64,000 nt of DNA from a bacterium 1xD42-67 (GTDB lineage: Bacteria; Bacillota; Clostridia; Oscillospirales; Oscillospiraceae). The stretch is from the NCBI GenBank assembly GCA_003612335.1, contig RAYO01000001.1, positions 1 through 64,000 of the forward strand, given 5' to 3'. This document shows, piece by piece, positions 3,785-48,973 of the stretch. The position numbers were made by a program, and so were the translations under genes. The notes beneath the pieces are model-generated. The model did not search any database. It had not been told where the DNA came from and was given only the letters and a program-made list of their open reading frames with translations. Each line of letters starts with the position of its first letter. The first letter of the stretch is position 1.

Positions 3785-5368
3785 TTATCCCTCAATCTCC
3801 ATCCCATTCTGGAAGGTGAACACCAGCCGCCCATCGTGGTAGGCTGTGGCCTTCTGCACCACTGCCAGCCAGAGGGAGTTTTCAAACTCCGTAATACCAA
3901 CCTCCCGTTCATGCAAGGCGAACATAAAACCGCCGATGAGGTCGACCTTGGTCTGCCGCTGTTTCTTCTGCTCCTGGAGGGCATCCACCCTGGCCTTGGC
4001 CTTCTCATATCTCGCCACATAGCCGTTGTAGCGTTCTGCGTACTCCTCCTGGCTCTGGGCGCGACCGGCGTTTTCCTGGATGCACCGCTGGGTTAGTTCC
4101 GTCACCACCGCGATTTCCCGGAGCAGTTCGTCCAGTTCCGCATCAATGGCGGAGCAGTTGGTGAGGTGGTCCTGCATGACGCGGCGATCCTCCAGCAGAG
4201 CGTCCTTGCCATCCAGCAGTTGATTGAACGCTGCCAGAAATCGGGCCTTGATATCCTCCTCCAACAGATGCGGGGTGCGGCACTTTTCCTCGTTGCTGAA
4301 CTTCCCGTTACACTGCCAGACCACGCGGCGGTACTTGCTGTTGGAGTGCCAGACCTTGGGGCCGTAGTAGCTGCCGCAGTCGCCACAGACCAGCCGGGAG
4401 GAGAATACTCCGCCGCCGCTGTAGTGGAGGCCCATGCCTTTGCGCCGAGCAAACTCGGCCTGAACAACATCAAACTCATGGGGCTGGATGATGGGCTGGT
4501 GGCTCCGCTCAATCCAATACTGCTGGACTTCGCCCTCGTTTACCTTCCGCTTTTTGCTGAGAAAATCAACTGTATAACATTTTTGAAGGAGTGCTGCCCC
4601 CTTATATTTTTCATTCGTGAGGATGCTCTCCACTACGCTGGCTCCCCACTTCTTTTTGCCGGAGGGCGTGGGGATGCCGTCAGCGGTGAGGGCCTTAGCA
4701 ATAGCGTAGCTGGTCTTGCCCTCCATGAAAAGAGCATAGATGCGGCGGACGATCTTAGCATCGTCCTCCACCACCTCCGGGAATCCGTCCGGCCCCTTCC
4801 GGTAGCCGAGAAACTGCTTATAGGGAAGGTTGACCTTGCCGTCAGAAAACCGCTTGCGCTGGCCCCAGGTGATGTTTTCCGAAAGGGAGCGGCTCTCTTC
4901 CTGGGCCAGCGAGGACATGATGGTGATGAGCAGCTCACCCTTGGAATCGAAGGTCCAGATATTCTCCTTCTCGAAGTAGACCTCCACGCCATGCTCCTTC
5001 AGCTTGCGGATGGTGATCAGGCTGTCCACCGTGTTCCGGGCAAAGCGGCTCACCGACTTGGTGACGATGAGGTCGATTTTCCCGGCGAGGGCATCGGCGA
5101 TCATCTGATTGAAACCAGCCCTGCGCTTTGTGTTCGTGCCGGAAATGCCCTCATCCGTATAGACCGACACAAATTCCCACTCCTGGTTGCTCTTGATGTA
5201 CCGGGTGTAGTAGTCGATCTGCGCCTCGTAGCTGGTGAACTGCTCATCACTGTCGGTGGAGACGCGGGCATACCCTGCTGTCCTGCGTTTCTTCGCCGCC
5301 ACCGCCGGGGCATGGGTATGAAGATTGATGGTTGGGGGAATGACCGTTACTGCTCTTACTGCTGGCAT
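3785..5368 (-). CDS. Large serine recombinase (second of a tandem pair)
   Basis: A 527-residue site-specific recombinase expected to join or excise the element. The resolvase domain carries the catalytic serine in GYARVSTD and the conserved VTKSVSRFARNT; a recombinase domain follows (PTPSGKKKWGASVVESIL), then a zinc ribbon (CGDCG with later Cys pairs) and a C-terminal coiled coil. I chose the ATG at 5368 (MPAVRAVTV) because GGTGATGAGG lies before it and it overlaps the upstream recombinase by 13 bases, pointing to coupled translation. The length and all catalytic segments look complete. The pair recalls ccrA/ccrB-type arrangements in which two recombinases act together. Confidence 0.9.
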   Translation of the reverse strand: MPAVRAVTVIPPTINLHTHAPAVAAKKRRTAGYARVSTDSDEQFTSYEAQIDYYTRYIKSNQEWEFVSVYTDEGISGTNTKRRAGFNQMIADALAGKIDLIVTKSVSRFARNTVDSLITIRKLKEHGVEVYFEKENIWTFDSKGELLITIMSSLAQEESRSLSENITWGQRKRFSDGKVNLPYKQFLGYRKGPDGFPEVVEDDAKIVRRIYALFMEGKTSYAIAKALTADGIPTPSGKKKWGASVVESILTNEKYKGAALLQKCYTVDFLSKKRKVNEGEVQQYWIERSHQPIIQPHEFDVVQAEFARRKGMGLHYSGGGVFSSRLVCGDCGSYYGPKVWHSNSKYRRVVWQCNGKFSNEEKCRTPHLLEEDIKARFLAAFNQLLDGKDALLEDRRVMQDHLTNCSAIDAELDELLREIAVVTELTQRCIQENAGRAQSQEEYAERYNGYVARYEKAKARVDALQEQKKQRQTKVDLIGGFMFALHEREVGITEFENSLWLAVVQKATAYHDGRLVFTFQNGMEIEG

Positions 5369-6669
5369 GACCTCATCACCTGTCCTTTCCTCGCATATTC
5401 TCTGGCGGCGGCTCTCATCTCCGGGGTCCAGCTTTCCGCCCTGGAACGGTCTGCCCACCGTTTAACGATTTGTGTACCGTCCTTGAACAGAAATACCAGA
5501 GTGTTGTTCCCCTCGGCCCTGATAGCCGTTATTTTATCGTGGAGGGCTTTTGCGTCAAAGGTGTCCAACACCAGCACCTCTGCCGCCACTTTCTCCAGTG
5601 TCCCTTCTGGAATCTGCTTGGAGGAACAGGCGGCTTTGCCATAGATGTTGAAGGTGCTGCAAATCCACACCGGCCCGGTTCGGGTCACCTTTCGCCGGTA
5701 GCCCTTGCCGCAGGTGCCGCAGACGATCATCGAAGTGAAAGGATACCTGGCAGGTCCACGGGTGGTTCTGTTGTGCTTGGCAGACCGCCGCGCCATCTCC
5801 GCCTGTACCGCCTGGTAGTCCTCCATGCTGACAATGGCCTCATGTGTGTTCTCCGCATGGTACATGGGCAGCTCACCACGGTTGGGGAGCGTCTTTTTGG
5901 TGATGTGGTTCTCTCTGAATGTGGTTTGGAGAAGCAGATTGCCGGTGTAGGAGTAGTTCCCCAGCACCTTCCGAACGCTGGAACGGCACCAGGCATGGCC
6001 GTTGCGGGAGGTCTTGCCTTGGGCGTTCAGCTTTTTCATGATGGCCTCGACACCCATGCCGGAGAGGTAGTCGGCGAAAATACTCCGCACAATCTCGGCC
6101 TCCTCCGGCTTGACGATGTAAACACCGTTCACATACTTGTACCCCAGAACCTGACCGGACCAGGGCATCCCTTCCTCGAAATTCTTCTTGATGCGCCATT
6201 TCTGATTCTCACTGGCGGAGAGGCTCTCCTCTTGGGCGTAGGATGCCAGAATGGTGAGCATCAGTTCGCCGTCCGCACTCATGGAGTGAATGTTCTGTTC
6301 CTCAAAATAGACATCCACTCCCAGCGATTTCAAATCCCGGACGGTCTGGAGCAGCACCACAGTATTCCTGGCGAACCGGGAAATCGACTTCGTGATGATG
6401 AGGTCGATGTTCCCGGCGCGGCACTCGGCCAGCAGCCGCTGGAAATTCTCCCGGTTCTCCTTTGTGCCGGTCAGGGCCTCGTCTGCGTACACCCCGCAGT
6501 AGAGCCAGCCGGGGTGGTTCTGGATGAGGCTGCTGTAGTAGCTGACCTGGGCTGAGAGGGAGTGGAGCATGGCGTCCTTGCCGGAGGACACTCTGGCGTA
6601 GGCCGCGACCCGCTCCGCCTTGGGCTGTGTAGGAACTTTCAGCCCCATTTTCTGAATAACGCGTTCCAA
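5356..6669 (-). CDS. Large serine recombinase (first of a tandem pair)
   Basis: A 437-residue serine recombinase starting at TTG (6669) behind AAGGAGGTGATT. The catalytic serine is in AAYARVSSG, followed by ITKSISRFARNT and YAQEES, the recombinase domain and a zinc ribbon (CGTCGKGYRRK, later Cys). It is shorter than its partner and lacks the long C-terminal coiled coil. Promoter copy E (6693-6721), shared with accessory genes at 25-30 kb, lies directly upstream, so the recombinase operon seems tied to the phage regulon. With the next gene it is the likely integration/excision module. Confidence 0.9.
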   Translation of the reverse strand: MERVIQKMGLKVPTQPKAERVAAYARVSSGKDAMLHSLSAQVSYYSSLIQNHPGWLYCGVYADEALTGTKENRENFQRLLAECRAGNIDLIITKSISRFARNTVVLLQTVRDLKSLGVDVYFEEQNIHSMSADGELMLTILASYAQEESLSASENQKWRIKKNFEEGMPWSGQVLGYKYVNGVYIVKPEEAEIVRSIFADYLSGMGVEAIMKKLNAQGKTSRNGHAWCRSSVRKVLGNYSYTGNLLLQTTFRENHITKKTLPNRGELPMYHAENTHEAIVSMEDYQAVQAEMARRSAKHNRTTRGPARYPFTSMIVCGTCGKGYRRKVTRTGPVWICSTFNIYGKAACSSKQIPEGTLEKVAAEVLVLDTFDAKALHDKITAIRAEGNNTLVFLFKDGTQIVKRWADRSRAESWTPEMRAAAREYARKGQVMRSCQQ

Positions 6670-6692: not shown

Positions 6693-6721
6693 ATATTCGC
6701 TCTAAAAGCCCGATTTATCAA
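6693..6721 (-). promoter_or_regulatory. Phage-specific promoter, copy E
   Basis: TTGATA (6721-6716), 17 bases, GAATAT (6698-6693). It shares TAGAGCGAATATG with four copies at 25-30 kb. It overlaps the stop of the SHOCT gene and lies 23 bases before the TTG of the first recombinase. Confidence 0.6.
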
Positions 6722-6888: not shown

Positions 6889-6890
6889 GC

Positions 6891-7265
6891 CTACACCCCC
6901 TTTCTCCGGGCCTCGGCGTAACAAGCGCAGGAGCAGTATTTCCGGTGGTTGTTGCCGTAGCTGTCGAAAGGCTGGCCGCATTGGGCGCAGGTGAAGTGGT
7001 AGACGGCTTTACGGTTGACCGCCTCCGGGTGGCTGTTCCACCAGGCAATGCGGCAGATATCCGAGCAGAATTTTTTCTCCTTATAGTGAGGGGTGCGCAC
7101 CAGCTTGGCTCCACATTGGAGGCACAGCTTTTCCTCGCCGTTTGGATTTCTCCGGCAGACCGACTTGACCGTATTCAGCGAGTAGCCAGTGAGGGCGGCG
7201 ATCTTTTTATAGCCCAGCCCCTGCTCCCGATAATGTAAAATGTCCATTGATTTTTCAGTTGCCAT
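6891..7265 (-). CDS. HTH protein with two zinc-binding segments
   Basis: 124 residues from ATG 7265 (RBS GAGGGG). Residues 1-40 form a sigma-70 region 4-like helix-turn-helix (YREQGLGYKKIAALTGYSLN). Two Cys clusters follow: CLQCGAKL with KFCSDICR, and FTCAQCGQPF with KYCSCACY. This combination is seen in small proteins next to recombinases of clostridial elements and probably binds DNA. It heads the group leading to the two recombinases, so it may be an excision factor or regulator. Confidence 0.75.
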   Translation of the reverse strand: MATEKSMDILHYREQGLGYKKIAALTGYSLNTVKSVCRRNPNGEEKLCLQCGAKLVRTPHYKEKKFCSDICRIAWWNSHPEAVNRKAVYHFTCAQCGQPFDSYGNNHRKYCSCACYAEARRKGV

Positions 7266-7341
7266 AGAATGATGCCCCTCAAAAAAGTAATAGAAATTCA
7301 AGCCCACCAGGGAAAATCCCCGGTGGGCCATAGTGGTGCTA

Positions 7342-23325: not shown

Positions 23326-23350
23326 CAATGATACAACAGATGTGGACTAT

Positions 23351-24952
23351 TCAAATAAAAAGTAGCCCCCGGCTGTCATACACACTCTCACTGATGTCGT
23401 TGCCGCAGCGGATAGCCCTGTCCAGGGCCATCACCGTGGCAACGGCACCATCGATTTTTTCGGTGGACTTTTCCTTGTCCGGCTTGATGTTGCCAGCCGG
23501 ATCGGTGCGGATGTAAATATTGTCCATCATCCACCGCAGCACCGGGTGACCACCGTGGGCCACCCGCTCCTCCAGCACCAGCTTCATCAGCTCCTTGGTG
23601 GGCGGGGACATATCCTTGAAGCCCTGCCCGAAGGGAACCACGGTAAAGCCCATGCCCTCCAAGTTCTGTACCATCTGAACGGCACCCCAGCGGTCAAAGG
23701 CAATCTCCCGGATGTTGAATCGTTCCCCCAACCGCTCGATGAACTTTTCGATGTAGCCATAGTGAACCACGTTGCCTTCGGTGGTCTGGAGGAACCCTTG
23801 CTTTTCCCACACATCGTAGGGAACATGGTCGCGCCTGACCCGGAGGTCGAGGTTGTCCTCTGGAATCCAGAAGTACGGGAGGATGCTGTATTTATCGTTC
23901 TCGTCCACGGGCGGGAACACCAGCACGAAGGCCGTGATGTCGGTGGTGGAGGAAAGGTCCAGCCCGCCGTAGCAGACCCGCCCCTCCAAGCTGTCCTCAT
24001 TGGCGGCAAAATCGCATTTGTCCCACCGCTCCATGGGCATCCAGCGCACCGCCTGTTTCACCCACTGATTCAAGCGGAGCTGCCGGAAGGAGTTCTCCTC
24101 GGCGGGATTCTGCTTGGCGGAGTCACACGCCGCCCGCACCTTGTCGATGCCCACCGTGATGCCCAGGGAGGGGTTAGCCTTTTTCCACACCTTGGGGTCC
24201 GTCCAATCGTCCCCCTCATCTGCACCGTAGATTACAGGGTAAAAGGTGGGGTCGATCTTCCGGCCCTCCAGAATATCCTTGGCCTTCTGGTGTGTCTCGT
24301 AGCAGATGGAGCGGGTGTCTGTGCCAGCCGTGGTGATGAAAAAGTAGAGCGGCTGCATCCGGGCGTCGCCGGAGCCTTTGGTCATGACATCGAACAGCTT
24401 TCTGTTCGGCTGGGTGTGTAGCTCGTCAAAGACCACCCCATGGATGTTGAATCCATGCTTGCTGTACGCCTCCGCCGAAAGCACCTGGTAGAAGGAGTTG
24501 GTGGGCTGGTAGATGATGCGTTTTTGGGAGGCCAGAATCTTCACCCGCTTGGAGAGAGCTGGACACATCTTCACCATATCGGCAGCGACCTCGAACACGA
24601 TAGACGCCTGCTGGCGGTCGGCGGCACAGCCATAAACCTCGGCCCGCTCCTCGCCATCGCCGCAGGTGAGCAGGAGGGCGACAGCGGCGGCAAGTTCGCT
24701 CTTGCCCATCTTCTTCGGGATTTCGATGTAGGCGGTGTTGAACTGGCGGTAGCCGTTAGGCTTGAGGGTGCCGAACACATCCCGGATGATCTGCTCCTGC
24801 CAGTCGATGAGTTCAAAGGGCTTTCCGGCCCAAGTCCCCTTAGTGTGACAAAGGCACTCGATGAACCCCACCGCATAGTCAGCGGCCTCCTTGCTGTAGG
24901 TGAAGTCCTTGGCCTTAAATGGGGTGGGCTTATATTTTTTCAGCTTGCGCAT
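23351..24952 (-). CDS. Terminase large subunit
   Basis: 533 residues. ATPase motor: Walker A-like IEIPKKMGKSELAAAVAL, Walker B GVVFDELHTQ, coupling motif FITTAGTD. Nuclease half: CYGGLDLSSTTDITAFVL, then IREIAFDRWGA and KIDGAVATVMALDRA. It cuts and packages phage DNA. The small subunit lies 8 kb upstream at 32.8-33.4 kb; the space between is filled by methyltransferase and accessory genes. Confidence 0.93.
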   Translation of the reverse strand: MRKLKKYKPTPFKAKDFTYSKEAADYAVGFIECLCHTKGTWAGKPFELIDWQEQIIRDVFGTLKPNGYRQFNTAYIEIPKKMGKSELAAAVALLLTCGDGEERAEVYGCAADRQQASIVFEVAADMVKMCPALSKRVKILASQKRIIYQPTNSFYQVLSAEAYSKHGFNIHGVVFDELHTQPNRKLFDVMTKGSGDARMQPLYFFITTAGTDTRSICYETHQKAKDILEGRKIDPTFYPVIYGADEGDDWTDPKVWKKANPSLGITVGIDKVRAACDSAKQNPAEENSFRQLRLNQWVKQAVRWMPMERWDKCDFAANEDSLEGRVCYGGLDLSSTTDITAFVLVFPPVDENDKYSILPYFWIPEDNLDLRVRRDHVPYDVWEKQGFLQTTEGNVVHYGYIEKFIERLGERFNIREIAFDRWGAVQMVQNLEGMGFTVVPFGQGFKDMSPPTKELMKLVLEERVAHGGHPVLRWMMDNIYIRTDPAGNIKPDKEKSTEKIDGAVATVMALDRAIRCGNDISESVYDSRGLLFI

Positions 24953-25006
24953 GGTGTGTCACCTCCAAAGGATATAAAAAATGACCTGCCCAGCGGCAAG
25001 CCAGTA

Positions 25007-25036
25007 ACGAGCAGCAGCCCCGAAGGGCTGGTGCTG
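25007..25036 (-). terminator. Hairpin shared with 26306-26329
   Basis: AGCCC-TTCG-GGGCT flanked by GCAGCA/TGCTGC forms a stable hairpin 25 bases after the stop at 25061. Twenty-four bases (25007-25030) are identical to 26306-26329. No clear U-run follows; it probably ends or processes the cassette transcript. Confidence 0.5.
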
Positions 25037-25060
25037 CGGTGTATTCGGTTTTGGTTCAAC

Positions 25061-25288
25061 TCACCAGGGGCATCCGCTGTTCTCGCAGCCCCGCGTGTCG
25101 TAGAGCATATCCTCCAAGGTGGTGTAGTGCTGGAGGTGGGCCAGTTCCTCTTGGAGCTGGTAGATTTCCTGGTACATCCCATCGTAGGCCCCGGCTGGGG
25201 CGAATCCGCAGCCAAGTTCCTCATCAGCCGCGATCCACTGCTCCAGATCGTCAATCTTCTTAATGATCTCCTTTTTCTGCCTCGTCAT
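25061..25288 (-). CDS. Small phage protein, function unknown
   Basis: 75 residues starting MTRQKKEIIKKIDDLEQWIA, mostly helical with heptad-like spacing, and ending in CENSGCPW. It lies 12 bases after the upstream gene and ends before a hairpin, as part of the same cassette. I do not recognise a family. Codon use fits the phage block. Confidence 0.6.
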   Translation of the reverse strand: MTRQKKEIIKKIDDLEQWIAADEELGCGFAPAGAYDGMYQEIYQLQEELAHLQHYTTLEDMLYDTRGCENSGCPW

Positions 25289-25300
25289 GTCTGGCCCCCC

Positions 25301-25603
25301 TCAGTTAGCCATCGCCCAGGCAATGGCGTGGCCGTTGTCCTCGAAGGTTTCCTCGGAAATGCTGACCAGTTCCACCCAGCCCTCGCAGGTGTGGTCGGCG
25401 GTGGTGAAGCGGTAGGTGGCCCCGTAGTAGCACCGCCCGTTGGGGTTGTAGAAGTACCCCGCGACCAGGATGCGGTCGCTGAAGGTGAGGATGGCGCCGC
25501 CATTGTGCATCATCTTCAGTTCGAGGTCCTCCGGGGTGGTGACCTTCTGGAGCCGATAGGTGTCGGCCTTCGCTGCGGTCTTGCTGTTCATCTTGATTTT
25601 CAT
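25301..25603 (-). CDS. Small phage protein, function unknown
   Basis: 100 residues from ATG 25603 (MKIKMNSKTAAKADTYRLQK), chosen because GGAGGG lies 7 bases upstream. Beta-rich (GGAILTFSDRILVAGYFYNP, YYGATYRFTTADHTCEGWVE). The start is preceded by promoter copy A 48 bases away. No catalytic motif is visible. Confidence 0.65.
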   Translation of the reverse strand: MKIKMNSKTAAKADTYRLQKVTTPEDLELKMMHNGGAILTFSDRILVAGYFYNPNGRCYYGATYRFTTADHTCEGWVELVSISEETFEDNGHAIAWAMAN

Positions 25604-25651
25604 GGTGTTGCCCTCCGTTTTCAAAGTGTGGTTTTCCCTTTCGGTATACCC

Positions 25652-25729
25652 ATATTCGCTCTAAACGGAGATAATAGCAAGTCAATTCGGAGCATAATCT
25701 ACACAAACATCCGGGGTAGAAACTGTGTA
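25652..25729 (-). promoter_or_regulatory. Phage-specific promoter, copy A, with upstream palindrome
   Basis: On the minus strand a TACACAG/TTGTGTA inverted repeat (25729-25700) is followed by TTGCTA (25680-25675), 17 bases and GAATAT (25657-25652). Confidence 0.65.
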
Positions 25730-25790
25730 TATTATGCCGCCGTATAACGAGGAGCAGGCCCTTCCGGGCCGTCCCCCTTGGGGCGATGGG

Positions 25791-26165
25791 TCAAAGCTGG
25801 ATTTCCTCGCCAGTGATAACATCCACCACCTTGGTGCCTGCGCCGAACGCAGCCCGCATCTCGGCGATTTCCTCGGTGCTGGGGGCCTTTCTGTTGGCCC
25901 GGTAGGATTCCAGGTCGGCCTGCACCTCGGCCTCTCGTGCGGCCCGTGTGGCGGCACTGTCGGCCCTGTCGGTGACTAGGAGGAGCTTCTCCAGCAGGTC
26001 ATCCATCAAGGCCCGTCCGATGCAGTTCCGGGCGACCCCGGCTTCGTCAATGGTGATCTCGCCGCTGTCCAGGTCGGTCTTGACCTTCGCCAGCTCCGCC
26101 TCGGCCTGTCGCTGCCAGTAGGCACCCAATTCGCCGCTCAGTTCCCGCTGAAATCTCGTTGTCAT
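25791..26165 (-). CDS. Small phage protein, function unknown
   Basis: 124 residues from ATG 26165 (MTTRFQRELSGELGAYWQRQ); GGAGGG lies 7 bases before it. A longer frame starting at 26216 begins inside the -10 box of promoter copy B and is rejected. The protein is helical and acidic (AELAKVKTDLDSGEITIDEA) and ends KVVDVITGEEIQL. No family recognised. Confidence 0.65.
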   Translation of the reverse strand: MTTRFQRELSGELGAYWQRQAEAELAKVKTDLDSGEITIDEAGVARNCIGRALMDDLLEKLLLVTDRADSAATRAAREAEVQADLESYRANRKAPSTEEIAEMRAAFGAGTKVVDVITGEEIQL

Positions 26166-26214
26166 GTTCATGCCCTCCGCTTTCAAAATGTGGTTTTCCC
26201 TTTCGGGTGTACCC

Positions 26215-26293
26215 ATATTCGCTCTAAATCAGGATAATAGCAAGCTAATTCAGAGGGCTAAAGTACACAAATATCCGTGATGGAGATCGTGTA
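26215..26293 (-). promoter_or_regulatory. Phage-specific promoter, copy B, with upstream palindrome
   Basis: TTGCTA (26243-26238), 17 bases, GAATAT (26220-26215). A TACAC...GTGTA inverted repeat (26293-26264) precedes it. Confidence 0.65.
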
Positions 26294-26305
26294 TATTTCC
26301 GCAGT

Positions 26306-26329
26306 ACGAGCAGCAGCCCCGAAGGGCTG
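26306..26329 (-). terminator. Hairpin shared with 25007-25030
   Basis: The same 24 bases as at 25007-25030, including AGCCCTTCGGGGCT. It lies 16 bases after the stop at 26345 and directly before promoter copy B, so it marks a cassette border. Confidence 0.5.
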
Positions 26330-26344
26330 TGCCGCCGCTGATGG

Positions 26345-26548
26345 TCAGCGGATGGGCTTGTACTTAGGGGCGGGAACCTTTCCAGTGGTGAGCCAGGCCA
26401 ACCAGCAGTCTTTGCAATCAACCAGGTCGCACTGTACATCGCCCTCCTCGAAGGGTGGATGGCCCGTCTCCAGCAGGGCGGCGATCTCGCCAGCCGTGGT
26501 GCCGGGGGCTTTCAGAATTTCCAACCCGGTCCTCGGTTTAGTGTTCAT
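26345..26548 (-). CDS. Small phage protein with Cys pair
   Basis: 67 residues from ATG 26548 (MNTKPRTGLEILKAPGTTAG; RBS GAGGGGGTG). CDLVDCKDCWLAWL holds three closely spaced cysteines. It overlaps the upstream zinc-ribbon gene by 11 bases. Function unknown. Confidence 0.6.
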   Translation of the reverse strand: MNTKPRTGLEILKAPGTTAGEIAALLETGHPPFEEGDVQCDLVDCKDCWLAWLTTGKVPAPKYKPIR

Positions 26549-26750
26549 ACCCACACCCCCTCTGGCAGCGGTGGATAGTATCGATGATCTTGTCCTGCTC
26601 GGCGGTGTCCACCCCGATGCTCTCCAGGGCCTCCCTGGTGCCGCAGTCTGGGCAGATGGGGCCGGAGCCGTCTCTGGCCGTGGCCGGGGGCGCGGTGTAG
26701 GTTTGGCCGCACCTGGGGCAGACCGAAATCCGAAAAATGTTGTTTTTCAT
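26538..26750 (-). CDS. Small zinc-ribbon protein
   Basis: 70 residues with CPRCGQTY and CPDCG spaced as a zinc ribbon and a third Cys pair near the end (CQRGCGYEH). It overlaps the gamma-glutamylcyclotransferase gene by four bases. Probably binds nucleic acid or protein; role unknown. Confidence 0.65.
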   Translation of the reverse strand: MKNNIFRISVCPRCGQTYTAPPATARDGSGPICPDCGTREALESIGVDTAEQDKIIDTIHRCQRGCGYEH

Positions 26751-27211
26751 TTCATCCCCTCCATGCTCCGCTGGATGGCGTCGGTCAAGTACCGCTGGCC
26801 GAATCCGAAGGAATCGTACCCTTCCCGGCAGACGGCCACATAGTGGGCAGAGGGCAGGCCGAGACTCCGTTCCTCGTGCATAATGTAGACGAACACCCTG
26901 CGGTGGCGAACCTTCCCTGTGCGGATGCCCTTGATGGGCAGCACCATCTCGGCCTTGTAGTAAAAGGTGGGGAACCCCTCATAGTGGTCCAGGGCCAACT
27001 CGTCATCCTCGCTGACCTCCCATGCCGCCACCGGGACGCTGGCCCCGGCCTTCGGTTCGATAGTGAGGTAGGAGCCGGTCTTGCTCCCCTTGAACAGCAG
27101 CTCGTAGTCGGGGATGACCGAGGTGCCGATAATCCGCGCCCCAGGGCAGCGCACCCGCATCTGCGGGATATTGAGGTTGCTGCCGTAGGCGATGTAATAG
27201 CGTTTTGCCAT
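26747..27211 (-). CDS. Gamma-glutamylcyclotransferase-like (AIG2/GGCT fold) protein
   Basis: 154 residues. YYIAYGSNLNIPQMRVRCPG contains the YGSN substrate loop of the GGCT-like fold, and the catalytic glutamate is expected in LDHYEGFPTFYYK. Such enzymes release gamma-glutamyl groups as 5-oxoproline or cleave related amide links. The next gene upstream is an amidoligase, which makes such links; this pairing is known from comparative studies of amidoligases, so the two may form and remove a peptide modification. Substrate unknown. Confidence 0.8.
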   Translation of the reverse strand: MAKRYYIAYGSNLNIPQMRVRCPGARIIGTSVIPDYELLFKGSKTGSYLTIEPKAGASVPVAAWEVSEDDELALDHYEGFPTFYYKAEMVLPIKGIRTGKVRHRRVFVYIMHEERSLGLPSAHYVAVCREGYDSFGFGQRYLTDAIQRSMEGMK

Positions 27212-27301
27212 GTTCTGTACCTTCCTTTCCGTTGGGCGCTTGCCCTTCTACCACCTAAAGCCCGCTCGGTGGCGGGTTTAGAGGGCCTGCGGCTAATGCC
27301 T

Positions 27302-28249
27302 TCAAGCGGCGCGTCCGTTGCGGAAGGCGGCGTCCCCGGCGAGGCGGCGGGTCAGCAGGTCGCGGGCGGTGGCGAACTCCTCGCCGATGAAACCCAGGCG
27401 GAGGAGCCATGTGCGCATGGTGTACTTGGGGTTGTCGTTCTGCTGGGGCTTGGGGCTGGCGGTCTTGACCGACTTCGCCATCTGGCTGAGCGCGAGGCAA
27501 AGCTGGATGTAGCTCTTGAGCTGCCCGGCGTGTAGGCCGTTCTTACGGTCGGCGGTGGGGGCGTCGAACTGGAAAAGCCGGAACTCAATCGTACCCTTGG
27601 TGAAGGTGGCGTGGAGGTTGAGCATATGGTAGCGGCTGTCGTTGTAGTGCTGGTTTCTGCCGTAGGTGGCGTTGTTGGCGCTGTACCAAATGTCTGCCAG
27701 GTCGCTCATGGTGCTGGGCTTGCGCTGGTTGACCGTCTCAATGAACCGGGGGTTGACCGTCCGGCAATACCGGCTCATGCGATAGTGGTCAAGGGCCAGA
27801 GCATCCGCCAGGAGGCTCTCGTGGCTGGCCATGATGTTCGCCAGATTGCGGAGGGTCTGGGCGGTGTGGCCCTTGGCCCCAATGTGGATGTGGACCCCGC
27901 AACCGCGTGTGTAGTCGCTCTTGGCCCCGGCCTTGCGCAGCCGCCGCACCAGCTCCTGGAGGGTGTCCATGTCGGCGTAGGTGAGGATCGGCGTGACCAT
28001 CTCGCACTTCTCGCTGTCCGGCCCCTCGATGCTGACGTCCCGCTGGAACTTCCACTCGCGGCCCTGGGCATCCCAAGCCGACCAGGTGTAGTAGCCGTTG
28101 CGGCAGGCGGTGTCCTCGCAGCGCCCGGTGCCGAAGAACTCGGCGGCGAGCTTGGCGGCGGCGTGGCGGGTGATGCTGTTCATCTCCACCTCGACCCCGA
28201 TGGTCTGCTTTTTCATTTCGGCGACCTGTTTTTTCATTTTCTCGTTCAT
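27302..28249 (-). CDS. Amidoligase-family enzyme
   Basis: 315 residues. GVEVEMNSITR (metal-binding Glu), CGVHIHIGAKG (His pair) and GTIEFRLFQFD (later Glu/Arg) are the hallmarks of the glutamine-synthetase-like amidoligase family, which uses ATP to join an amine to a carboxyl group. Residues about 272-315 form a separate module (YTMRTWLLRLGFIGEEF) also found at the C-terminus of the protein at 28915-29763. Promoter copy C stands 57 bases upstream. Likely partners are the GGCT-like gene and the shared-module protein. Its role in the phage is unknown. Confidence 0.8.
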   Translation of the reverse strand: MNEKMKKQVAEMKKQTIGVEVEMNSITRHAAAKLAAEFFGTGRCEDTACRNGYYTWSAWDAQGREWKFQRDVSIEGPDSEKCEMVTPILTYADMDTLQELVRRLRKAGAKSDYTRGCGVHIHIGAKGHTAQTLRNLANIMASHESLLADALALDHYRMSRYCRTVNPRFIETVNQRKPSTMSDLADIWYSANNATYGRNQHYNDSRYHMLNLHATFTKGTIEFRLFQFDAPTADRKNGLHAGQLKSYIQLCLALSQMAKSVKTASPKPQQNDNPKYTMRTWLLRLGFIGEEFATARDLLTRRLAGDAAFRNGRAA

Positions 28250-28306
28250 GGTGCTGACCTCCGTTTTTTGTGTGTCCGGCGGGGTGTTTTCCCTTTCGGT
28301 AGTGAC

Positions 28307-28384
28307 ATATTCGCTCTAAAACGGAGATATAGCAAGTTAATTCGATTCGTAAAGTACACAAGGATTCTGGGCCGGAATTGTGTA
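28307..28384 (-). promoter_or_regulatory. Phage-specific promoter, copy C, with perfect palindrome
   Basis: TACACAA...TTGTGTA (28384-28355; perfect 7-base arms), then TTGCTA (28335-28330), 17 bases and GAATAT (28312-28307). Confidence 0.7.
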
Positions 28385-28386
28385 GT

Positions 28387-28692
28387 TTATGCCTCGGTCT
28401 GCACCAGCGGGGCCAGGTTTTCACTCTCGCCGGTCAGGATGTCCAGCATGAATTTGGCCCCGGTGCGGAACCCGTCCATGTAGCGTTCCTGGGCCGTGGT
28501 GGTGCTGGTGGTGAGCTGGGCATCGACCAGCCGCTCCAGTGCGGCGAGACATTCGCCGTCCAAGTTTTCCCGGAGGAAGGACTCAGCATCGGCCATTTCC
28601 TTCACCGCCTTTTGCAGCTCGGAGGTCCGCTTGATGACGGTCACGTCCGGGGTGATGTTGCCAAGGTAGAACTCACCGATAATGCTGCGCAT
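28387..28692 (-). CDS. DUF6809-like small phage protein
   Basis: 101 residues from ATG 28692 (MRSIIGEFYLGNITPDVTVI). The all-helical body and the end YMDGFRTGAKFMLDIL match small proteins found repeatedly in clostridial phages and integrative elements. It starts one base after the upstream stop. Function unknown. Confidence 0.65.
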   Translation of the reverse strand: MRSIIGEFYLGNITPDVTVIKRTSELQKAVKEMADAESFLRENLDGECLAALERLVDAQLTTSTTTAQERYMDGFRTGAKFMLDILTGESENLAPLVQTEA

Positions 28693-28693
28693 T

Positions 28694-28918
28694 TCACTCG
28701 CCCACCTTTCTGCATTCGTCCACTCCGAACAGCACATGGAGGGAGCCGACGCCGTCCCAGGCCACCATAATGGAGCCGGAATCATCCACGCCCCTCACGG
28801 TTCCCCTGGTGCCGATGGGCGGGGCCTGGGGATCGTCCATGCGGAGCAGCTCCACCCGCGTCCCCTGCGGGAACCGCTCCCGCAGGCTGGCGAGGATTTC
28901 CGGGGTCATGCCTCTCAT
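28694..28918 (-). CDS. DUF4314-like protein
   Basis: 74 residues starting at ATG 28918, which overlaps the upstream stop as ATGA. The sequence FPQGTRVELLRMDDPQAPP and GTRGTVRGVDDSGSIMVAWD is typical of DUF4314, a small SH3-like barrel common in clostridial mobile elements. It probably binds a protein or nucleic acid. Confidence 0.75.
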   Translation of the reverse strand: MRGMTPEILASLRERFPQGTRVELLRMDDPQAPPIGTRGTVRGVDDSGSIMVAWDGVGSLHVLFGVDECRKVGE

Positions 28919-29763
28919 GACGCCGCCTCCTCTCCAAAGGAGGCGTTGACCTGCTGGATCAGCAGCTCGTCCGCCAGGGCCTCGGCCAGCTCCGGGTCGC
29001 CCTGGGCCTCCACCGCAGCGGTGAAGGCGGGAGGCTCTGGCTGAAGAGCCTCGGCGGTGCGCTTGCCGGACTTGAATGCGCTGTTGCCGGAGAGGTTGCG
29101 GAGGAGGATTTTCCGCTCGTCCTTGTACTCGGCTCCGATGAAGCCCAGCCGGAGCAGGAAACACCGGAAGGCGTACTTGTCGTTGTCGGTGGCCTTTTCC
29201 TTGGCGGTGATGCGTTTCTGGTTCCGGGCCATGTCACAGAGGGCGGCGATCAGGTGGGTGTAGGCTTTGACCTCATCGGCATCAAGCTCCCGGCCCTCGA
29301 ACCAGGGGAAGGAAACCGTATCGGCCTCCACCTGCACCGGCAGGAGGTCGATGCCCAGGGCCTTGCGGATGAGCCGTCCCTTGGCGGCGAGGATGCTGGT
29401 GAGGTTGGCCAGCGTCTCGGAGGGCAGGCTGGCGGCGGGGAGGGTGACCGTCAGGCCGAAGCCGTGGGGCTGGGTGACGCCCTCCTCTGCGGGAGCGGCC
29501 TCCGCCTCGGCGGTGTTGGCCTTGGCGATGGTGTCCTCAGTGTGGAACCCCTGGCCCTCCAGCTCTGCCATCAGAGCGTCGATGTCGCTGTTGTAGCCCC
29601 GGTCCTCGAAGCTGACCGCGCCGTCCTTGCTGACGGTGAGGTAACCAATCTGGTAGGCGAAGGTCGGCGCACCCAGGTACTTTTTCTCCGTACCCATGAA
29701 GCCGGAAATGTAGTCGGCGAGGCGCTTGCGCTCGGTGCCGGTCACGTTGTAGTTGATCGTCAT
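28915..29763 (-). CDS. Accessory protein sharing a C-terminal module with the amidoligase
   Basis: 282 residues. Residues 1-75 resemble an anti-restriction/virulence-type N-terminus (YISGFMGTEKKYLGAPTFAY); the middle (GFGLTVTLPAASL) is beta-rich with DLLPVQVEADTVSFPWFEGR; residues about 195-235 (YAFRCFLLRLGFIGAEY) align with the end of the neighbouring amidoligase. Sharing that module suggests both are brought to the same partner. Promoter copy D lies 31 bases upstream. Enzymatic function cannot be named. Confidence 0.65.
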   Translation of the reverse strand: MTINYNVTGTERKRLADYISGFMGTEKKYLGAPTFAYQIGYLTVSKDGAVSFEDRGYNSDIDALMAELEGQGFHTEDTIAKANTAEAEAAPAEEGVTQPHGFGLTVTLPAASLPSETLANLTSILAAKGRLIRKALGIDLLPVQVEADTVSFPWFEGRELDADEVKAYTHLIAALCDMARNQKRITAKEKATDNDKYAFRCFLLRLGFIGAEYKDERKILLRNLSGNSAFKSGKRTAEALQPEPPAFTAAVEAQGDPELAEALADELLIQQVNASFGEEAAS

Positions 29764-29794
29764 GGTGGAAACCCCCTTGTTTTTTGGTAGTCAC

Positions 29795-29872
29795 ATATTC
29801 GCTCTACCCGGCGGATATAGCAAGTTGTTTCTCGCCCTGACCTCGACAAATTACTGGCTGGATAATTGTGTA
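29795..29872 (-). promoter_or_regulatory. Phage-specific promoter, copy D
   Basis: TTGCTA (29823-29818), 17 bases, GAATAT (29800-29795). The palindrome is less perfect here (TACACAATTA with TAATTTGT) and overlaps the last codons of the cytosine methyltransferase gene. Confidence 0.6.
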
Positions 29873-31572
29873 GACCACACAATGCCTGCCAGCACGAAAA
29901 ACACATTTGGCAAGGCCACGCCATTCCCCCACATTTTATATTCAGCGGCATCCGAATGAGGGTGTTGCAGCCACTTGATGATCTGGTTCCGGCTCTTGGC
30001 CTTGGCGGAGCCGCCCATCACCCGGCGGTGCGTTTCCCAGACCTCCGTCCAGAAAGCGATATCCTCCTCGGTAGGCTCCGGTGTGTCAAGACCAGCACAC
30101 CAAAAATCCGGGAACCCTTGTAACCTGGCGCATTCGGTGGGGGTGAGCCTCCGCACACTGTAGCCCCGATTGACTGCGGTGGGGTCTTTGAAATCCCGCG
30201 CCATCAGGGTGGGAGCCTGCTCCGCGCTGACCTGCGTGTATTTTCCTGTTGTCACAGCATAGGTCGGCCCCTCCACCACGGCGATGCCGCCCTGGTTGCA
30301 GGAGGGGTTGCCGCCGCTCTGATCCAGCGTCCGGGAGGAGTCCGCCTCGTAGATTCCGCTGTGGGGGTTGTCCGAGAGCATTCCCTCGCTGAAAGCCGCG
30401 CCGATGCTGTAGCACTTCGGCACGAATAGCGTCTGGTCGTTGTTGCAGGAGAGGGTGGCGGACACATCCTCCTGGATGAGCGCCCCCTTGCCGCCGCCCT
30501 CGCAGCCGGAGCGGATCTTCAGCGTTTTGGGCGTGTCGGCCTCCACCACGAAGGGCTGGTTGTTGCCGCCGGTGCCATAGGTGGAGCTGACCGTGGGGGC
30601 CGTGTCCAACGGCCCGGTGTATCTGGTGTCCTGACTATGGTTCTCATAGACGGCGGTGGGGATGGCCCCAGCCCGGAGGGTGGGAGCGCGTTCCTCCTCA
30701 TAGCCAATGCCCCGGCTCTGGGCGGAACACTCCTTGCAGAAACCCGCCGCCAGCACACAGGGCGGATGCACATGCTCTTGGGCGCGGAGGGTGGCGGTCA
30801 CTTCCTCAGAAATGTCCATCCGCCCGCCGCCTTGGTCGTTCAGGCAGATGCCGCCTGCCGCTCCAAGGCCAGCCGCAGGATTTCTGGCAGCTCTTTGCCA
30901 CGAGCGGAAGCCCTCCGCAGAATACCCAGACAAGCCTTCGGACTCAAATAATACTTGTCCGGCACACTGGCCTGCAAGATCGCCGACAAGGTAGACGCGG
31001 CGTCTCCGCTGGGGGACTCCCCAATGTTGCGCATCAAAAGTGCGGTACGCAACGCTCCATCGCTCTCCCATGTAAAGGTCGGCGTAGGGCCAGCGGTCTT
31101 TCTCAGGCATAGGCACCTCGGCCCCCGGCTCGATGATCCTGATGACCGCTTCGAGGACCGCTTTGAAGTCGAGGCCCCGGTTTGAACTGAATGCGCCGAC
31201 AACGTTCTCCCAGCATATCCACCGTGGGTATCTTCCATTGGTGGCACACCTCATTTCTTTGATGATGCGGATGGCCTGATAGAACAGCGAGGACTGAGCG
31301 CCATCCAGACCAGCCCTTTTCCCGGCGATGCTCATATCGGTGCAGGGGGAGCCGAAGGTGATAATGTCCACCGGCTCGATCTTCCCGCCATCCATCCGGG
31401 AGATGTCACCGTAGTGTTTCATGTTGGGGAACCGCCTGGTGGTCACCCGGATGGGGAACGGCTCGATCTCCGAGGCCCAGACCGGGGTGACGCCAGCCAG
31501 CAGCCCGCCCAAAGGAAATCCCCCGGAGCCGTCAAACAGGCTGCCGAGGGTCAGTGTGTTTTTCTGTTCCAT
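29851..31572 (-). CDS. DNA (cytosine-5) methyltransferase
   Basis: 573 residues. Motif I LGSLFDGSGGFPLGGLL, motif IV GSPCTDMSIAGKR with the catalytic Cys, motif VI ICWENVVGAF, motif VIII QRRRRVYLVGD and motif X MWGNGVALPNV are all present. Between VIII and X lies an unusually long target-recognition region (about residues 240-470) with several similar short units (ATLRAQ, PTLRAG, PTVSSTYGTGGNNQP, ATLSCNNDQTLFVP, PTLMARDF). It probably protects phage DNA from restriction. No cognate nuclease adjoins it. It overlaps the upstream gene by 41 bases. Confidence 0.9.
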   Translation of the reverse strand: MEQKNTLTLGSLFDGSGGFPLGGLLAGVTPVWASEIEPFPIRVTTRRFPNMKHYGDISRMDGGKIEPVDIITFGSPCTDMSIAGKRAGLDGAQSSLFYQAIRIIKEMRCATNGRYPRWICWENVVGAFSSNRGLDFKAVLEAVIRIIEPGAEVPMPEKDRWPYADLYMGERWSVAYRTFDAQHWGVPQRRRRVYLVGDLAGQCAGQVLFESEGLSGYSAEGFRSWQRAARNPAAGLGAAGGICLNDQGGGRMDISEEVTATLRAQEHVHPPCVLAAGFCKECSAQSRGIGYEEERAPTLRAGAIPTAVYENHSQDTRYTGPLDTAPTVSSTYGTGGNNQPFVVEADTPKTLKIRSGCEGGGKGALIQEDVSATLSCNNDQTLFVPKCYSIGAAFSEGMLSDNPHSGIYEADSSRTLDQSGGNPSCNQGGIAVVEGPTYAVTTGKYTQVSAEQAPTLMARDFKDPTAVNRGYSVRRLTPTECARLQGFPDFWCAGLDTPEPTEEDIAFWTEVWETHRRVMGGSAKAKSRNQIIKWLQHPHSDAAEYKMWGNGVALPNVFFVLAGIVWSTQLSSQ

Positions 31573-32794
31573 CGCAGACCTCCGAATACTGATAGGTCAG
31601 CCCATCCCGCTGGACGGAAACACCATCGGCTGAACCGACCTGCTCGATGTACCGCTTGACGATCACATCGCAGAACTTCTCATCCAACTCAATGGTGCAG
31701 CAGGAGCGGTCGGTCTGCTCACAGGCGATCAGCGTGGAGCCGGAGCCGCCGAAGGGGTCCAGCACCAGGGTGTTGCTCATGCTGGAGTTCATAATGGGGT
31801 AGGCCAGCAGCGGGATCGGCTTCATGGTGGGGTGGTCGCCGTTCTTTTTTGGTTTGTCGAACTCCCAGATGGTGGATTCCTTCCGCCCGGTGTACCACTG
31901 GTGCTTACCCTTCTTCTTCCAGCCGAACAGGATTGGCTCGTGCTGCCACTGGTAGGGAGAGCGGCCCAGCACCAGGGACTGTTTCTTCCAGATACACGTC
32001 CCGGAGAGCCGGAATCCGGCATCCGCAAAGGCGCGGCGGAAGTTCAGCCCCTCGGTGTCGGCGTGGAACACATAAATGCTGGCGTCATCCGCCATCACCG
32101 TCTCGGTGTTCTGGAACGCCGCCAGGAGGAACTGGTAGAAGGCATCGTCCGCCATGTTGTCGTTCTTGATCTTCCCGGCACTGCCCTCGTAGTTCACATT
32201 GTAAGGCGGGTCCGTGATGACCAGATTGGCCTTGCGGTCGCCCATGAGCAGGGCGAAAGTTTCAGCCTTGGTGCTGTCGCCGCAGACCAGCCGGTGCCGA
32301 CCCAGCGTCCACACATCCCCGGCCTTGGTGATGACCGGGGCCTTCAACTCGGCCTCCACATCGAAATCATCATCCTTGACCTTGCTCTGCTGGGCATCCT
32401 TGAACAGCGAATCGATCTCCGCAGGCTCGAAGCCGGTGAGAGACACATCAAAGTCGGCTCCCTGGAGGTCGGCGATGAGCAGGGCCAGCTTGTCCTTGTC
32501 CCACTCGCCGGAGATTTTGTTGAGGGCGATGTTGAGCGCCTTTTCCTTCTCGGCGTCCATTTCCACCACCACGCACTCCACCTCGGTGATGCCCATGTCC
32601 AGCAGCACCTTCAGCCGCTGGTGTCCGCCCACGACAAAGCCGGTGGTCTTGTTCCAAATCACCGGCTCCACATAGCCGAACTGCTCGACGGAGCGTTTCA
32701 GCTTCTCATATTCAGCGTCCCCCGGCTTGAGGTCCTTCCGGGGGTTGTAGTCGGCGGGGATAAGCTCCGCCGTGTGTTTTCTCTCGATTACCAT
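31532..32794 (-). CDS. ParB-like / adenine (N6) DNA methyltransferase fusion
   Basis: 420 residues from ATG 32794. Residues 1-110 form a ParB/sulfiredoxin-like domain (IPADYNPRKDLKPG, VVGGHQRLKVLLDMGI). The methyltransferase part has DPPYNVNYEG (motif IV) before DPFGGSGSTLIACEQTDR (motif I), the beta-class order. It modifies adenine or N4-cytosine in phage or host DNA. Typical of phages with terminase next door; together with the downstream cytosine enzyme the phage carries two different DNA modifications. Confidence 0.9.
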   Translation of the reverse strand: MVIERKHTAELIPADYNPRKDLKPGDAEYEKLKRSVEQFGYVEPVIWNKTTGFVVGGHQRLKVLLDMGITEVECVVVEMDAEKEKALNIALNKISGEWDKDKLALLIADLQGADFDVSLTGFEPAEIDSLFKDAQQSKVKDDDFDVEAELKAPVITKAGDVWTLGRHRLVCGDSTKAETFALLMGDRKANLVITDPPYNVNYEGSAGKIKNDNMADDAFYQFLLAAFQNTETVMADDASIYVFHADTEGLNFRRAFADAGFRLSGTCIWKKQSLVLGRSPYQWQHEPILFGWKKKGKHQWYTGRKESTIWEFDKPKKNGDHPTMKPIPLLAYPIMNSSMSNTLVLDPFGGSGSTLIACEQTDRSCCTIELDEKFCDVIVKRYIEQVGSADGVSVQRDGLTYQYSEVCDGTEKHTDPRQPV

Positions 32795-35379: not shown

Positions 35380-35426
35380 TTTGGACGCTCCTTTTTTACA
35401 GATTTGGCCTTTTGCCGCCGGGTAGC

Positions 35427-35461
35427 AAAAAGCCCACCAAGCACTCTGCCATTTGGTGGGC
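35427..35461 (-). terminator. Leader terminator before the NYN gene
   Basis: GCCCACCAA and TTGGTGGGC (35461-35453 and 35440-35432) form a perfect 9-base-pair stem followed by TTTTT. It lies about 20 bases after the predicted transcription start and 48 bases before the NYN start codon. Confidence 0.7.
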
Positions 35462-35487
35462 CTTCTGGGGCGCGGCTGCCGAAGTTT

Positions 35488-35542: not shown

Positions 35543-35974
35543 TTATTCAATGCCAAGGATGGCCTTGACCTCCTCCAGCGCCTTGCCGTGGATTCGATAC
35601 AGCCAGCGCAGATCGTAGCCCATCTCTACCGCAATCTGCTCCCAGCTTTGGAAACACAGATACCGCTTTTCCAGGACGGTTTGGTATTCGGGACTGTCCA
35701 CCGCTTTGATGGTCTTGGAGAGGCTGCGCTTCAAATCGACCAGTGTGTCGATGTCATTGTTGATTTCCGCCTGGAGGTCGATGATCTTGGCAATGACATC
35801 CTCCATGGACGAGGTGGCATGGTTGGGATTCCGGGGCATCCCGGTCAACGTAGAGGTGGCCTTGGTCGCCAGATCGTTCAGAGCGGCCACCTGCTGGATT
35901 TTGCTGTTGATGCGCTGGTCCAGGAACTTGGCCTGGGAGAGATATTCTTTTACCGTCATTTCTTTCGTTTCCAT
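35543..35974 (-). CDS. DUF1492/RinA-like late transcription regulator
   Basis: 143 residues. N-terminal coiled coil (MTVKEYLSQAKFLDQRINSK) and a C-terminal sigma region 4-like HTH (YLCFQSWEQIAVEMGYDLRW, LYRIHGKALEEVKAIL) match the DUF1492/ArpU/RinA group that switches on phage late genes. It is the last gene before the first leader-terminator promoter, a position that recalls lambda Q upstream of its late promoter. Confidence 0.8.
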   Translation of the reverse strand: METKEMTVKEYLSQAKFLDQRINSKIQQVAALNDLATKATSTLTGMPRNPNHATSSMEDVIAKIIDLQAEINNDIDTLVDLKRSLSKTIKAVDSPEYQTVLEKRYLCFQSWEQIAVEMGYDLRWLYRIHGKALEEVKAILGIE

Positions 35975-37603: not shown

Positions 37604-37627
37604 AGGTCCTCCAGAAGTATTTTTTGT

Positions 37628-45145: not shown

Positions 45146-45544
45146 TTAACCAGTCTGAAAAACCTTTTTCATCTTTTTCAGTGCGGCGGTTTTCATCTTG
45201 GACACCGCCGCGTCAGAGATGCCCCGCTGCTTGGCATAGACTTTCGGCGGAACGCATTCAAAATACAGAGCATGGATAAGGTGGCGCTGGGCTTCAGTCA
45301 GCCGGGGCAGCGCCGCCGCCACCAGCTTCTTGGCTTCGTCCTGCTCTAACACCGCATCGAAGCCAAAGTCCTCTGCGGCAAAGGTGGCTCCCTCATATTG
45401 GCAGGCATCCAGGCTGATGTGCCTGCGGGTTTCCTTGTGGTTGACGTTGTACTCCTGCCTGTTCAGATCGACCAGGACGATCCCCCATTCATCGGGGACG
45501 TCCACCTCAACAGCGCCGGTGACAAACTCATACTTGATTTTCAT
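45146..45544 (-). CDS. Sigma-70 region 4-like regulator
   Basis: 132 residues from ATG 45544 (MKIKYEFVTGAVEVDVPDEW). The C-terminal half (LPRLTEAQRHLIHALYFECV, VYAKQRGISDAAVSKMKTAA) is a sigma region 4-type HTH. It opens the replication block and could direct RNA polymerase to the TTGCTA/GAATAT promoters seen elsewhere; that link is speculation. Confidence 0.7.
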   Translation of the reverse strand: MKIKYEFVTGAVEVDVPDEWGIVLVDLNRQEYNVNHKETRRHISLDACQYEGATFAAEDFGFDAVLEQDEAKKLVAAALPRLTEAQRHLIHALYFECVPPKVYAKQRGISDAAVSKMKTAALKKMKKVFQTG

Positions 45545-45882
45545 TTTTGTGTCCTTTCCGCCTGGGGGCGGCAGGGCGGGGACACAAAAATGGCCGGAGC
45601 GTATCAGCCCCGAACCATGCACAGCCAAAAAGGGCGCACAGGATCAAGGGTGCTGATAACGCCTCTCCCAGCAGGGAGGGTCGGCGATTATAGCATCCTC
45701 GCCCATGTGCGCACACAGGCTACGATATTGTTATCTCAACGGCCAGAGCCGCTTTGACCTACTGCTATATATAAAAGGTTTTTGCAAAAAGGAAAAAGCC
45801 GGGGTATAGCAATCCAGTAGCAGTTGAATACTGCCTTGGATTGCCATACCCCGGCTCGGTGGTGGTCTACTCTTTGAACCCC
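45545..45882. other. Intergenic region with a large terminator
   Basis: No gene is supported in these 338 bases. It contains the leader of the sigma-like gene, an AT-rich segment (TATATATAAAAGG near 45765) and the structured terminator at 45797-45856. Confidence 0.5.
45785..45856 (-). terminator. Long terminator with an inner hairpin
   Basis: Twenty-base arms (45797-45816 and 45837-45856) pair with one mismatch; GCAGT and ACTGC inside form a second small hairpin. On the minus strand TTTTTCCTTTTT follows. It ends the transcript of the zinc protein at 45883-46113 and separates the regulatory from the replication region. Confidence 0.75.
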
Positions 45883-48682: not shown

Positions 48683-48973
48683 AATGGTTTCACCTTTTCT
48701 TTTCAATTAGGCCATCCTTCGTCATATCTTGTCATTCTTTAGACTGCACTTTCGCCTCATAGCGGTTTGCGTCTCTCATTTGACTGCTCTCGACTGTACT
48801 AAGCCCTTCATTTTCAACACTCGGTGAATACGGCAAGAAAGCGTGTGCGCTAACTTGCGAATAAAAGTATAGCACAGACCATGCAACCTTGTCAAGAGTG
48901 GGAATATGTCTTTTTTTCGATGCTTCGGGTGAGAATGTAAAAGTTGGGAAGTCTCACAGGCTTCCCAGCTTGA
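48683..48973. other. Regulatory intergenic region
   Basis: This 291-base AT-rich stretch has no gene. It holds the XRE promoter and operator-like motif (48817-48895) and ends at the stop of the next XRE gene. Confidence 0.5.
48817..48895 (-). promoter_or_regulatory. Promoter and operator-like motif of the XRE-ImmA operon
   Basis: TTGACA (48895-48890), 18 bases, TATACT (48871-48866). Just downstream, overlapping the expected start, CGCTAACTTGCGAA (48848-48861) and ACACTCGGT (48817-48825) match the region at 47403-47441. Confidence 0.65.

Follow-up and report, generated by a model that had tools for sequence, protein, structure and literature searches.

The 64,000-nucleotide (nt) stretch of DNA analyzed here (the window, from contig RAYO01000001.1 of the Oscillospiraceae bacterium 1xD42-67) carries a prophage in which the element TTG(C/A)TA-N17-GAATAT is repeated ahead of several genes. 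The repeated element is a real feature of the window, and comparison with related phages indicates that it is probably a group-wide late promoter with a shared core. On balance, we favor the reading that the copies are activator-dependent late promoters of phages of the 'Candidatus (Ca.) Heliusviridae' type, at which a putative Ltr/ArpU-type activator would act together with host RNA polymerase (RNAP) carrying sigma-A. The sequences themselves show the element, its constant geometry, where it occurs and how poorly it agrees with sigma-A promoters; promoter activity, late timing, the start point and the reader are inferred. The five copies are as follows.

25652..25680, minus strand: site A, TTGCTA-N17-GAATAT, upstream of the Nmad4 gene 25301-25603
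26215..26243, minus strand: site B, TTGCTA-N17-GAATAT, upstream of gene 25791-26171
28307..28335, minus strand: site C, TTGCTA-N17-GAATAT, upstream of the amidoligase gene 27302-28249
29795..29823, minus strand: site D, TTGCTA-N17-GAATAT, upstream of the 282-aa gene 28915-29763
6693..6721, minus strand: site E, TTGATA-N17-GAATAT, upstream of large serine recombinase genes

All five minus-strand copies are exact, contain TAGAGCGAATATG, and stand precisely where a first-pass annotation, made from the sequence alone, had placed them. Its range of 23-57 bases to the gene start also agrees with the distances from motif to start codon that we measured (E 23, A 48, B 43, C 57 and D 31 nt, that of site B being counted to the first ATG). 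Allowing at most one mismatch, the two-box pattern gives six matches in the window against a shuffled mean of 0.35, and none of 100 shuffles reached six. The lower box alone, with three mismatches, gives 11 matches where 9.15 are expected, which is not above chance, and the signal therefore resides in the two-box form. The two-box pattern occurs nine times in the whole host assembly and TAGAGC accompanies it only at the five window sites. Between sites A and C, compensating one-base changes leave the 17 bp intact. A plasmid search with 25500-29950 gave no match, an Rfam search returned tRNAs only, and gene 25791-26171 behind site B has no Pfam or PHROG family at 0.001. At site E, an 87-aa open reading frame (ORF; 6718-6981, minus strand) terminates within the promoter-like element before the recombinase, and at many recombinase loci elsewhere a short ORF likewise terminates within 5 nt of the site.

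The first-pass annotation had taken the constant 17-base spacing as a trace of selection. Because the pattern used to retrieve sites had itself fixed the gap, we tested the spacing on 97 loci fetched by other means, namely the window, loci retrieved through homology to the amidoligase, and phage records that BLAST returned for the window DNA or for a consensus. All 132 distinct sites in these loci have a gap of 12 to AGAG, which equals 17 bp to GAATAT, and no site was found at gaps of 4-11 or 13-23. Conversely, 72 of 73 lower boxes have an upper box at the fixed distance, and three shuffles of the test yielded no site. Selection on the spacing of this promoter-like element is thus supported by the comparison.

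The complete element extends beyond the two boxes and comprises, in order, an upstream box TTTGTGTAnnTTATGC, AT-rich steps at intervals of about 10 bp, CTTGCTAT, TTTAGAG, GAATAT, a loosely conserved (C)TACC about 7 bp past the -10, and a purine-rich leader. The steps (near -27, -16 and -6 relative to TTGCTA), the TACC and the leader come from a flank profile of 400 sites, in which the core columns were required by the search. The box TTTGTGTAnnTTATGC is found at -28 to -26 in every gene class, recombinases included, and scores 9.0-10.6 of 14 compared with 4.7-5.6 for shuffled sequence. A mirrored left arm accompanies the box in 164 of 332 nonredundant sites (shuffled mean 6.5), and in 103 of these 164 the loop is 16. 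The upstream elements of the window copies are listed below.

25692..25737, minus strand: upstream element of site A, mirrored boxes with 14-nt arms 93% complementary, left arm TACACAG
26255..26303, minus strand: upstream element of site B, box TTTGTGTA, imperfect left arm TACACGA
28343..28396, minus strand: upstream element of site C, mirrored boxes, arms 16 nt apart, extended arms of 19 nt, 79%
29835..29883, minus strand: upstream element of site D, weak box (right arm) TTTGTCGA, left arm TACACAA
6733..6749, minus strand: upstream box of site E, weak CCTTGGATAGTATTTTT

A TACACAA/TTGTGTA palindrome had been noted at four copies. It is exact at C; A, B and D are imperfect versions, so that the description fits loosely. 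At A and C the palindrome includes the TTAT part, a repeat finder detected no extended arms at B or D, and the left arm is absent from site E.

The element is widespread. A stricter two-box pattern was found in at least 120 stretches of viral contigs and at least 116 stretches of genome contigs; chance alone would give roughly one match in the genome-contig scan, and a few hits (e.g. L166) look like chance. Loci L001-L242 contain at least 248 distinct sites, at least 234 of them with an ORF behind, at a median distance of 43 nt. These ORFs fall in at least 38 BLAST clusters among the matches listed, although clustering was by single linkage and some singletons may be spurious ORFs. The biggest clusters among those matches are amidoligase-linked (94, the representative having no Pfam hit), DUF7698 (24), Nmad4 (23) and serine recombinases (23). 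The motif thus recurs in the related phages examined, where its absence would have spoken against the first-pass proposal. Among 150 sampled genomes of the host's family, the strict pattern was confined to the window's own genome, a distribution that speaks against a class of host promoters. In phages of Streptococcus, Erysipelothrix and Gardnerella the prevailing form is AGAGTGATATAT. Far from the usual hosts, the element and a DUF7698-cluster gene occur in gammaproteobacterial genomes (L133 and L194, contigs filed under Ruminobacter and Succinimonas). Divergent forms, CATGGCCTAATG and GACGGTAATATG, are present at L343 (15819-18699), L344 (16539) and L340 (15858); they have TTGC or TGGATA/TTGATA at unchanged spacing and adjoin phrog_36 proteins (described below) fairly close to that of the window. 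A link between TGGATA and a long phrog_36 was considered and rejected, since single genomes hold both forms.

The sites are placed on one side of the candidate regulator gene, a member of phrog_36. The phrog_36 gene could be located in 44 loci (L333 being the window's phage again). There, 77 strict matches lie downstream of it on the same strand, in 61 distinct contexts, one lies upstream and none is on the opposite strand. Two of the 77 (window position 28445 and its copy) and the lone upstream match are chance-like. In the window and 16 phages, a promoter-like site stands directly ahead of the packaging genes, as expected of an Ltr system: the last accessory site precedes terL by a median of 809 nt and at most 5145 nt, terL in L001, L004 and L328 being assigned by place and length as the record says hypothetical. 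In the window, site A is the final copy ahead of the terminase, 700 nt from terL. Sites also occur where the late region ends on its distal side, before an annotated recombinase or invertase gene in L004, L330 and L244 and before hypothetical or cut genes in L001, L327 and L243. The first-pass annotation had suggested that accessory genes and recombinases would form a single regulon. The element is indeed common to both, and the putative regulon would be larger than proposed, taking in the terminase side, because the last copy lies so close to terL and the sites lie on the late side of the regulator gene.

The spacing of the sites, 17 bp in each of the 132, is that of sigma-A promoters, and their hexamers are not TTGACA/TATAAT-like: 320 of 332 nonredundant sites match the consensus at 7-8 of 12 positions, six at 9-10 and six at 6. 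A consensus promoter scan of 23000-31600 listed none of sites A-D. Promoters with 12 of 12 matches lie 10-12 kb upstream of phrog_36, in the early regions of four phages, and one 12 of 12 match is on a late side (L329). The class of 11-12 matches divides into seven early and two late, which is modest support, and the density of 10 of 12 matches is equal (1.01 late vs 1.13 early per 10 kb). The pattern fits a predicted arrangement of ordinary early promoters and activator-dependent late ones. The early region of the window has one such candidate.

48866..48895, minus strand: candidate sigma-A-type promoter of the early region, 11 of 12

Two sigma-like proteins of the phage had been put forward as possible readers.

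35543..35974, minus strand: putative Ltr/ArpU-type regulator (phrog_36, DUF1492-like), coiled coil plus sigma-region-4-like helix-turn-helix (HTH)
45146..45628, minus strand: sigma-like protein (phrog_11138, with weaker RNAP sigma factor matches), from families not universal in motif-bearing phages

The suggestion holds better for the protein at 35543-35974, whose family matches the window and all 17 relatives, the only one of three candidates to be found in all 17. The phrog_36 profile also matches 12 of 14 control genomes, sigma region 4 being common, and presence alone is therefore a weak argument. According to the annotation tables, the gene lies between a helicase-sized gene and the packaging side, the place of an Ltr gene. 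Ten of 16 further records have a full-length phrog_36 match upstream of a site, both on one contig and one strand; of these ten, G009 and G013 count only through the GATAT form. The structural model of 35543-35974 (mean predicted local distance difference test score 89.9) has a long coiled coil and an HTH, and its C-terminal segment resembles sigma region 4, among others that of sigma-E bound to -35 DNA, in short alignments with template modeling scores of 0.70-0.80 when normalized by target length. A PDB profile search placed sigma factors first, weakly (E 0.024). The model shows no full sigma factor, just a sigma-region-4-like head attached to the coiled coil, and co-variation did not single the protein out. 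For the protein at 45146 the proposal fits less well, as phrog_1740 has no match in four of 17 relatives and phrog_11138 in seven. Of the 13 relatives with phrog_1740, two (W01 and W03) match only through the phrog_36 gene itself. The early sigma-like family phrog_1740 was rejected as sole reader for its four motif-bearing phages without a match, and phrog_2308, present in 13 of 17, was rejected likewise. No full sigma factor family (phrog_1740, phrog_11138) was found in all 17 relatives, as a phage sigma-factor regulon would require.

In the mechanism that we propose, ordinary sigma-A promoters would drive the early genes, and the early operon would end with the putative activator 35543-35974, a coiled coil with a sigma-region-4-like head. 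Bound to the upstream box, which frequently occurs in two copies as a palindrome, the activator (by itself or together with a partner) would assist host RNAP carrying sigma-A in opening a weak promoter composed of a -35 (CTTGCTAT), a spacer of exactly 17 bp and a -10 (GAATAT or a variant). RNA would start near (C)TACC, and each copy would begin a late unit, that is, an accessory-gene cassette, the packaging and structural operon, or the serine recombinase cassette. In class I activator promoters with UP elements, a binding box lies upstream of a weak -35/-10 with phased AT steps. The present element resembles them in all these respects, and the AT steps about 10 bp apart upstream of TTGCTA support the proposed mechanism for their likeness to an UP element; it differs in that the activator is putative and the box is known from sequence comparison only. 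The T4 gp55 and SPO1 gp28 regulons likewise combine non-consensus hexamers, fixed spacing and late use, whereas here no full sigma factor family accompanies all carriers. The SAS/ESAS repeats of cluster K mycobacteriophages, which also precede many phage genes with an inverted repeat upstream, lie at the ribosome-binding site, while the window copies are 23-57 nt from the start codon and have promoter geometry. ArpU, RinA and LtrC are late regulators of the Ltr type. In the available text on phage phi13, Ltr is the last early gene and activates the late promoter P23, described with a canonical SigA motif, via four direct repeats (PMC13123087). Compared with that account, the phages studied here similarly have the regulator last in the early module and a target promoter ahead of the packaging genes; unlike P23, they have several dispersed copies per phage, also ahead of a recombinase, and these copies share a fixed two-box core without a canonical SigA motif. 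By analogy, the element appears to work like an Ltr-type late switch, of which it is a putative example.

Several observations weigh against the proposed mechanism. The four imperfect direct repeats of Ltr promoters were not seen: five of six regions have no direct-repeat family, and the sole match is a two-copy 12-nt repeat in L247. Full-length phrog_36 was not found near the site in six of the 16 further records (G001, G003, G004, G006, G007 and G012), some of which have sites near contig ends. The Foldseek E-values are weak, the best being 0.049. Across 28 loci, the core tracks a neighbouring gene (partial r 0.52) rather than phrog_36 (0.18), and without four loci whose control gene is doubtful the remaining 24 favor neither, the values being about equally weak (0.20 and 0.19); in these 24, the upstream box leans slightly to phrog_36 (0.30 vs 0.16). 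AGAGCGAATATG is retained at 11 loci where phrog_36 shares just 16-21% identity with that of the window, and is not retained at L343 and L344, where the identity is 55-56%. No strict site lies downstream of phrog_36 in 14 of the 44 loci, many of them short, although L343 and L344 offer 10 kb and have divergent forms only. When 12 of these 14 (all except L337 and L342) were scanned with looser patterns, L005, L331 and L340 proved to contain sites, and L343 and L344 contained divergent ones. In L044, L055, L082, L114, L165 and L191, a recombinase cassette with its site follows a presumed DNA polymerase, recognised by eye, and is expected to be early. The cassettes of these six loci look as if they were mobile by themselves.

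The identical cores alongside very different phrog_36 proteins, and the failure of the core to follow phrog_36 more than a neighbouring gene, would be explained if another phage factor, or a succession of sigma-like proteins, read the late promoters and the Ltr-like protein had its role at other sites. We regard this as unlikely though deserving serious attention, because none of the other sigma-like or HTH families tested is universal (phrog_1740 13, phrog_11138 10 and phrog_2308 13 of 17). It is more improbable that the element is a weak constitutive host sigma-A promoter serving the prophage by moron-like expression in lysogeny, in which case the palindrome would be an operator bound by a repressor or a host activator. 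Such a promoter would account for the T at -7 of the sigma-A -10, kept in 79% of sites (the A at -11 was required by the search and is not counted), for sites in phages or contigs of several phyla, and for the company of accessory genes and an integrase, which are generally typical lysogeny or moron genes. It agrees poorly with 7-8 of 12 consensus positions in nearly all sites, with their placement on the regulator gene's own strand and late side only, and with the use of the same element as the last site before the terminase.

In many copies TTGCTATTAT reads TG-n-TATTAT, and the true promoter might be this extended -10 (TGnTATTAT), with AGAGCGAATATG serving as an operator or as a conserved leader at the 5' end. 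Conservation of the final T in that hexamer is just 49%, the distance to the lower box is kept without exception in 132 sites, and sites such as C drop TATTAT but hold the 17 bp; we set this very improbable reading aside for the weak last T and the fixed spacing. Hardly any weight falls on a non-transcriptional role, in which the repeats would be recombination sites for swapping accessory cassettes or would be carried along with serine recombinases. One element ahead of so many protein clusters (38 or more, some singletons perhaps spurious) and its travel with recombinase cassettes suit such a role, while its constant position on the gene strand in mapped loci, the median of 43 nt to the start codon for the matches listed and the -35/-10/leader layout do not. 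The element may nevertheless serve both transcription and recombination.

DNA 25500-29950 matches 42 phage records, 18 of the best 20 of these 42 being NatCom gut phages, and the best match covers 53% among the matches listed; the NatCom records examined are filed as Ca. Heliusvirales. The nine shared genes of Ca. Heliusviridae include, in the available text, DUF2800, DUF2815, PolI, VRR-NUC, SNF2 helicase, TerL and portal (PMC9226167). Pfam hits for eight of the nine lie at the expected places of the window, and the VRR-NUC candidate 37319-37654 (111 aa) has no Pfam hit. The remaining two are reportedly Clp protease and capsid, and PF10991 is presumed by us to be DUF2815. By these matches and this gene content, the window prophage is probably of the 'Ca. 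Heliusviridae' type. The genes associated with the sites are listed below.

23351..24952, minus strand: terminase large subunit, preceded by site A and a 75-aa ORF
25301..25603, minus strand: Nmad4 protein, behind site A, followed by the terminase
26747..27211, minus strand: gamma-glutamyl cyclotransferase (GGACT), beyond the amidoligase of site C
27302..28249, minus strand: Amidoligase_2 enzyme, behind site C
28915..29763, minus strand: 282-aa protein, phrog_2443 (amidoligase family), behind site D
5356..6669, minus strand: large serine recombinase, immediately behind site E
3785..5458, minus strand: second large serine recombinase, in tandem with the first, behind site E
6891..7331, minus strand: phrog_2308 protein of the recombinase cassette, with HNH-type PHROG matches and, by eye, an HTH and cysteine knuckles; the third candidate reader

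Three serine recombinase genes lie near the prophage end, one at 1432-2508 on the plus strand in addition to the two within 3785-6669 on the minus strand. Elsewhere in the window, three genes within 49271-60253 (plus strand) match the PADLOC profiles HmaA, HmaB and HmaC of a defence system; a SLOG-family gene precedes them, and tRNA-Leu and tRNA-Met adjoin. Periodic repeats of 33 and 66 nt (13966-14883) lie within a 1163-aa ORF, the probable tape measure gene. An NYN-domain protein (33997-35517, minus strand), without a PADLOC match at 1e-5, is encoded between the late regulator and the HNH gene.

Ca. Heliusviridae were found in over 90% of study participants, according to the available text of PMC9226167; its main text does not contain the word 'promoter', and we found no regulatory element described there for this group. 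Two 12-letter motif strings did not occur among the literature matches listed, which look unrelated. The findings raise the possibility, which we advance tentatively and consider doubtful as a whole, that a transferable late-transcription unit (two-box core plus upstream box) works across several phyla, that its phage-encoded reader belongs neither to the full sigma factors nor to the classical Ltr repeat binders, and that one control governs both the integrase and the late lytic genes; the breadth across phyla refers to phages of Clostridia, Streptococcus, Erysipelothrix and Gardnerella and to contigs filed under Succinimonas and Ruminobacter. An integrase behind the same element makes the timing of integration and excision directly testable. 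If the proposed mechanism is true, these phages would have a readable late-promoter code from which transcription units could be predicted and accessory cassettes and integrases located, and they would allow tests of how a single group of phages retains its late switch in hosts that differ widely.

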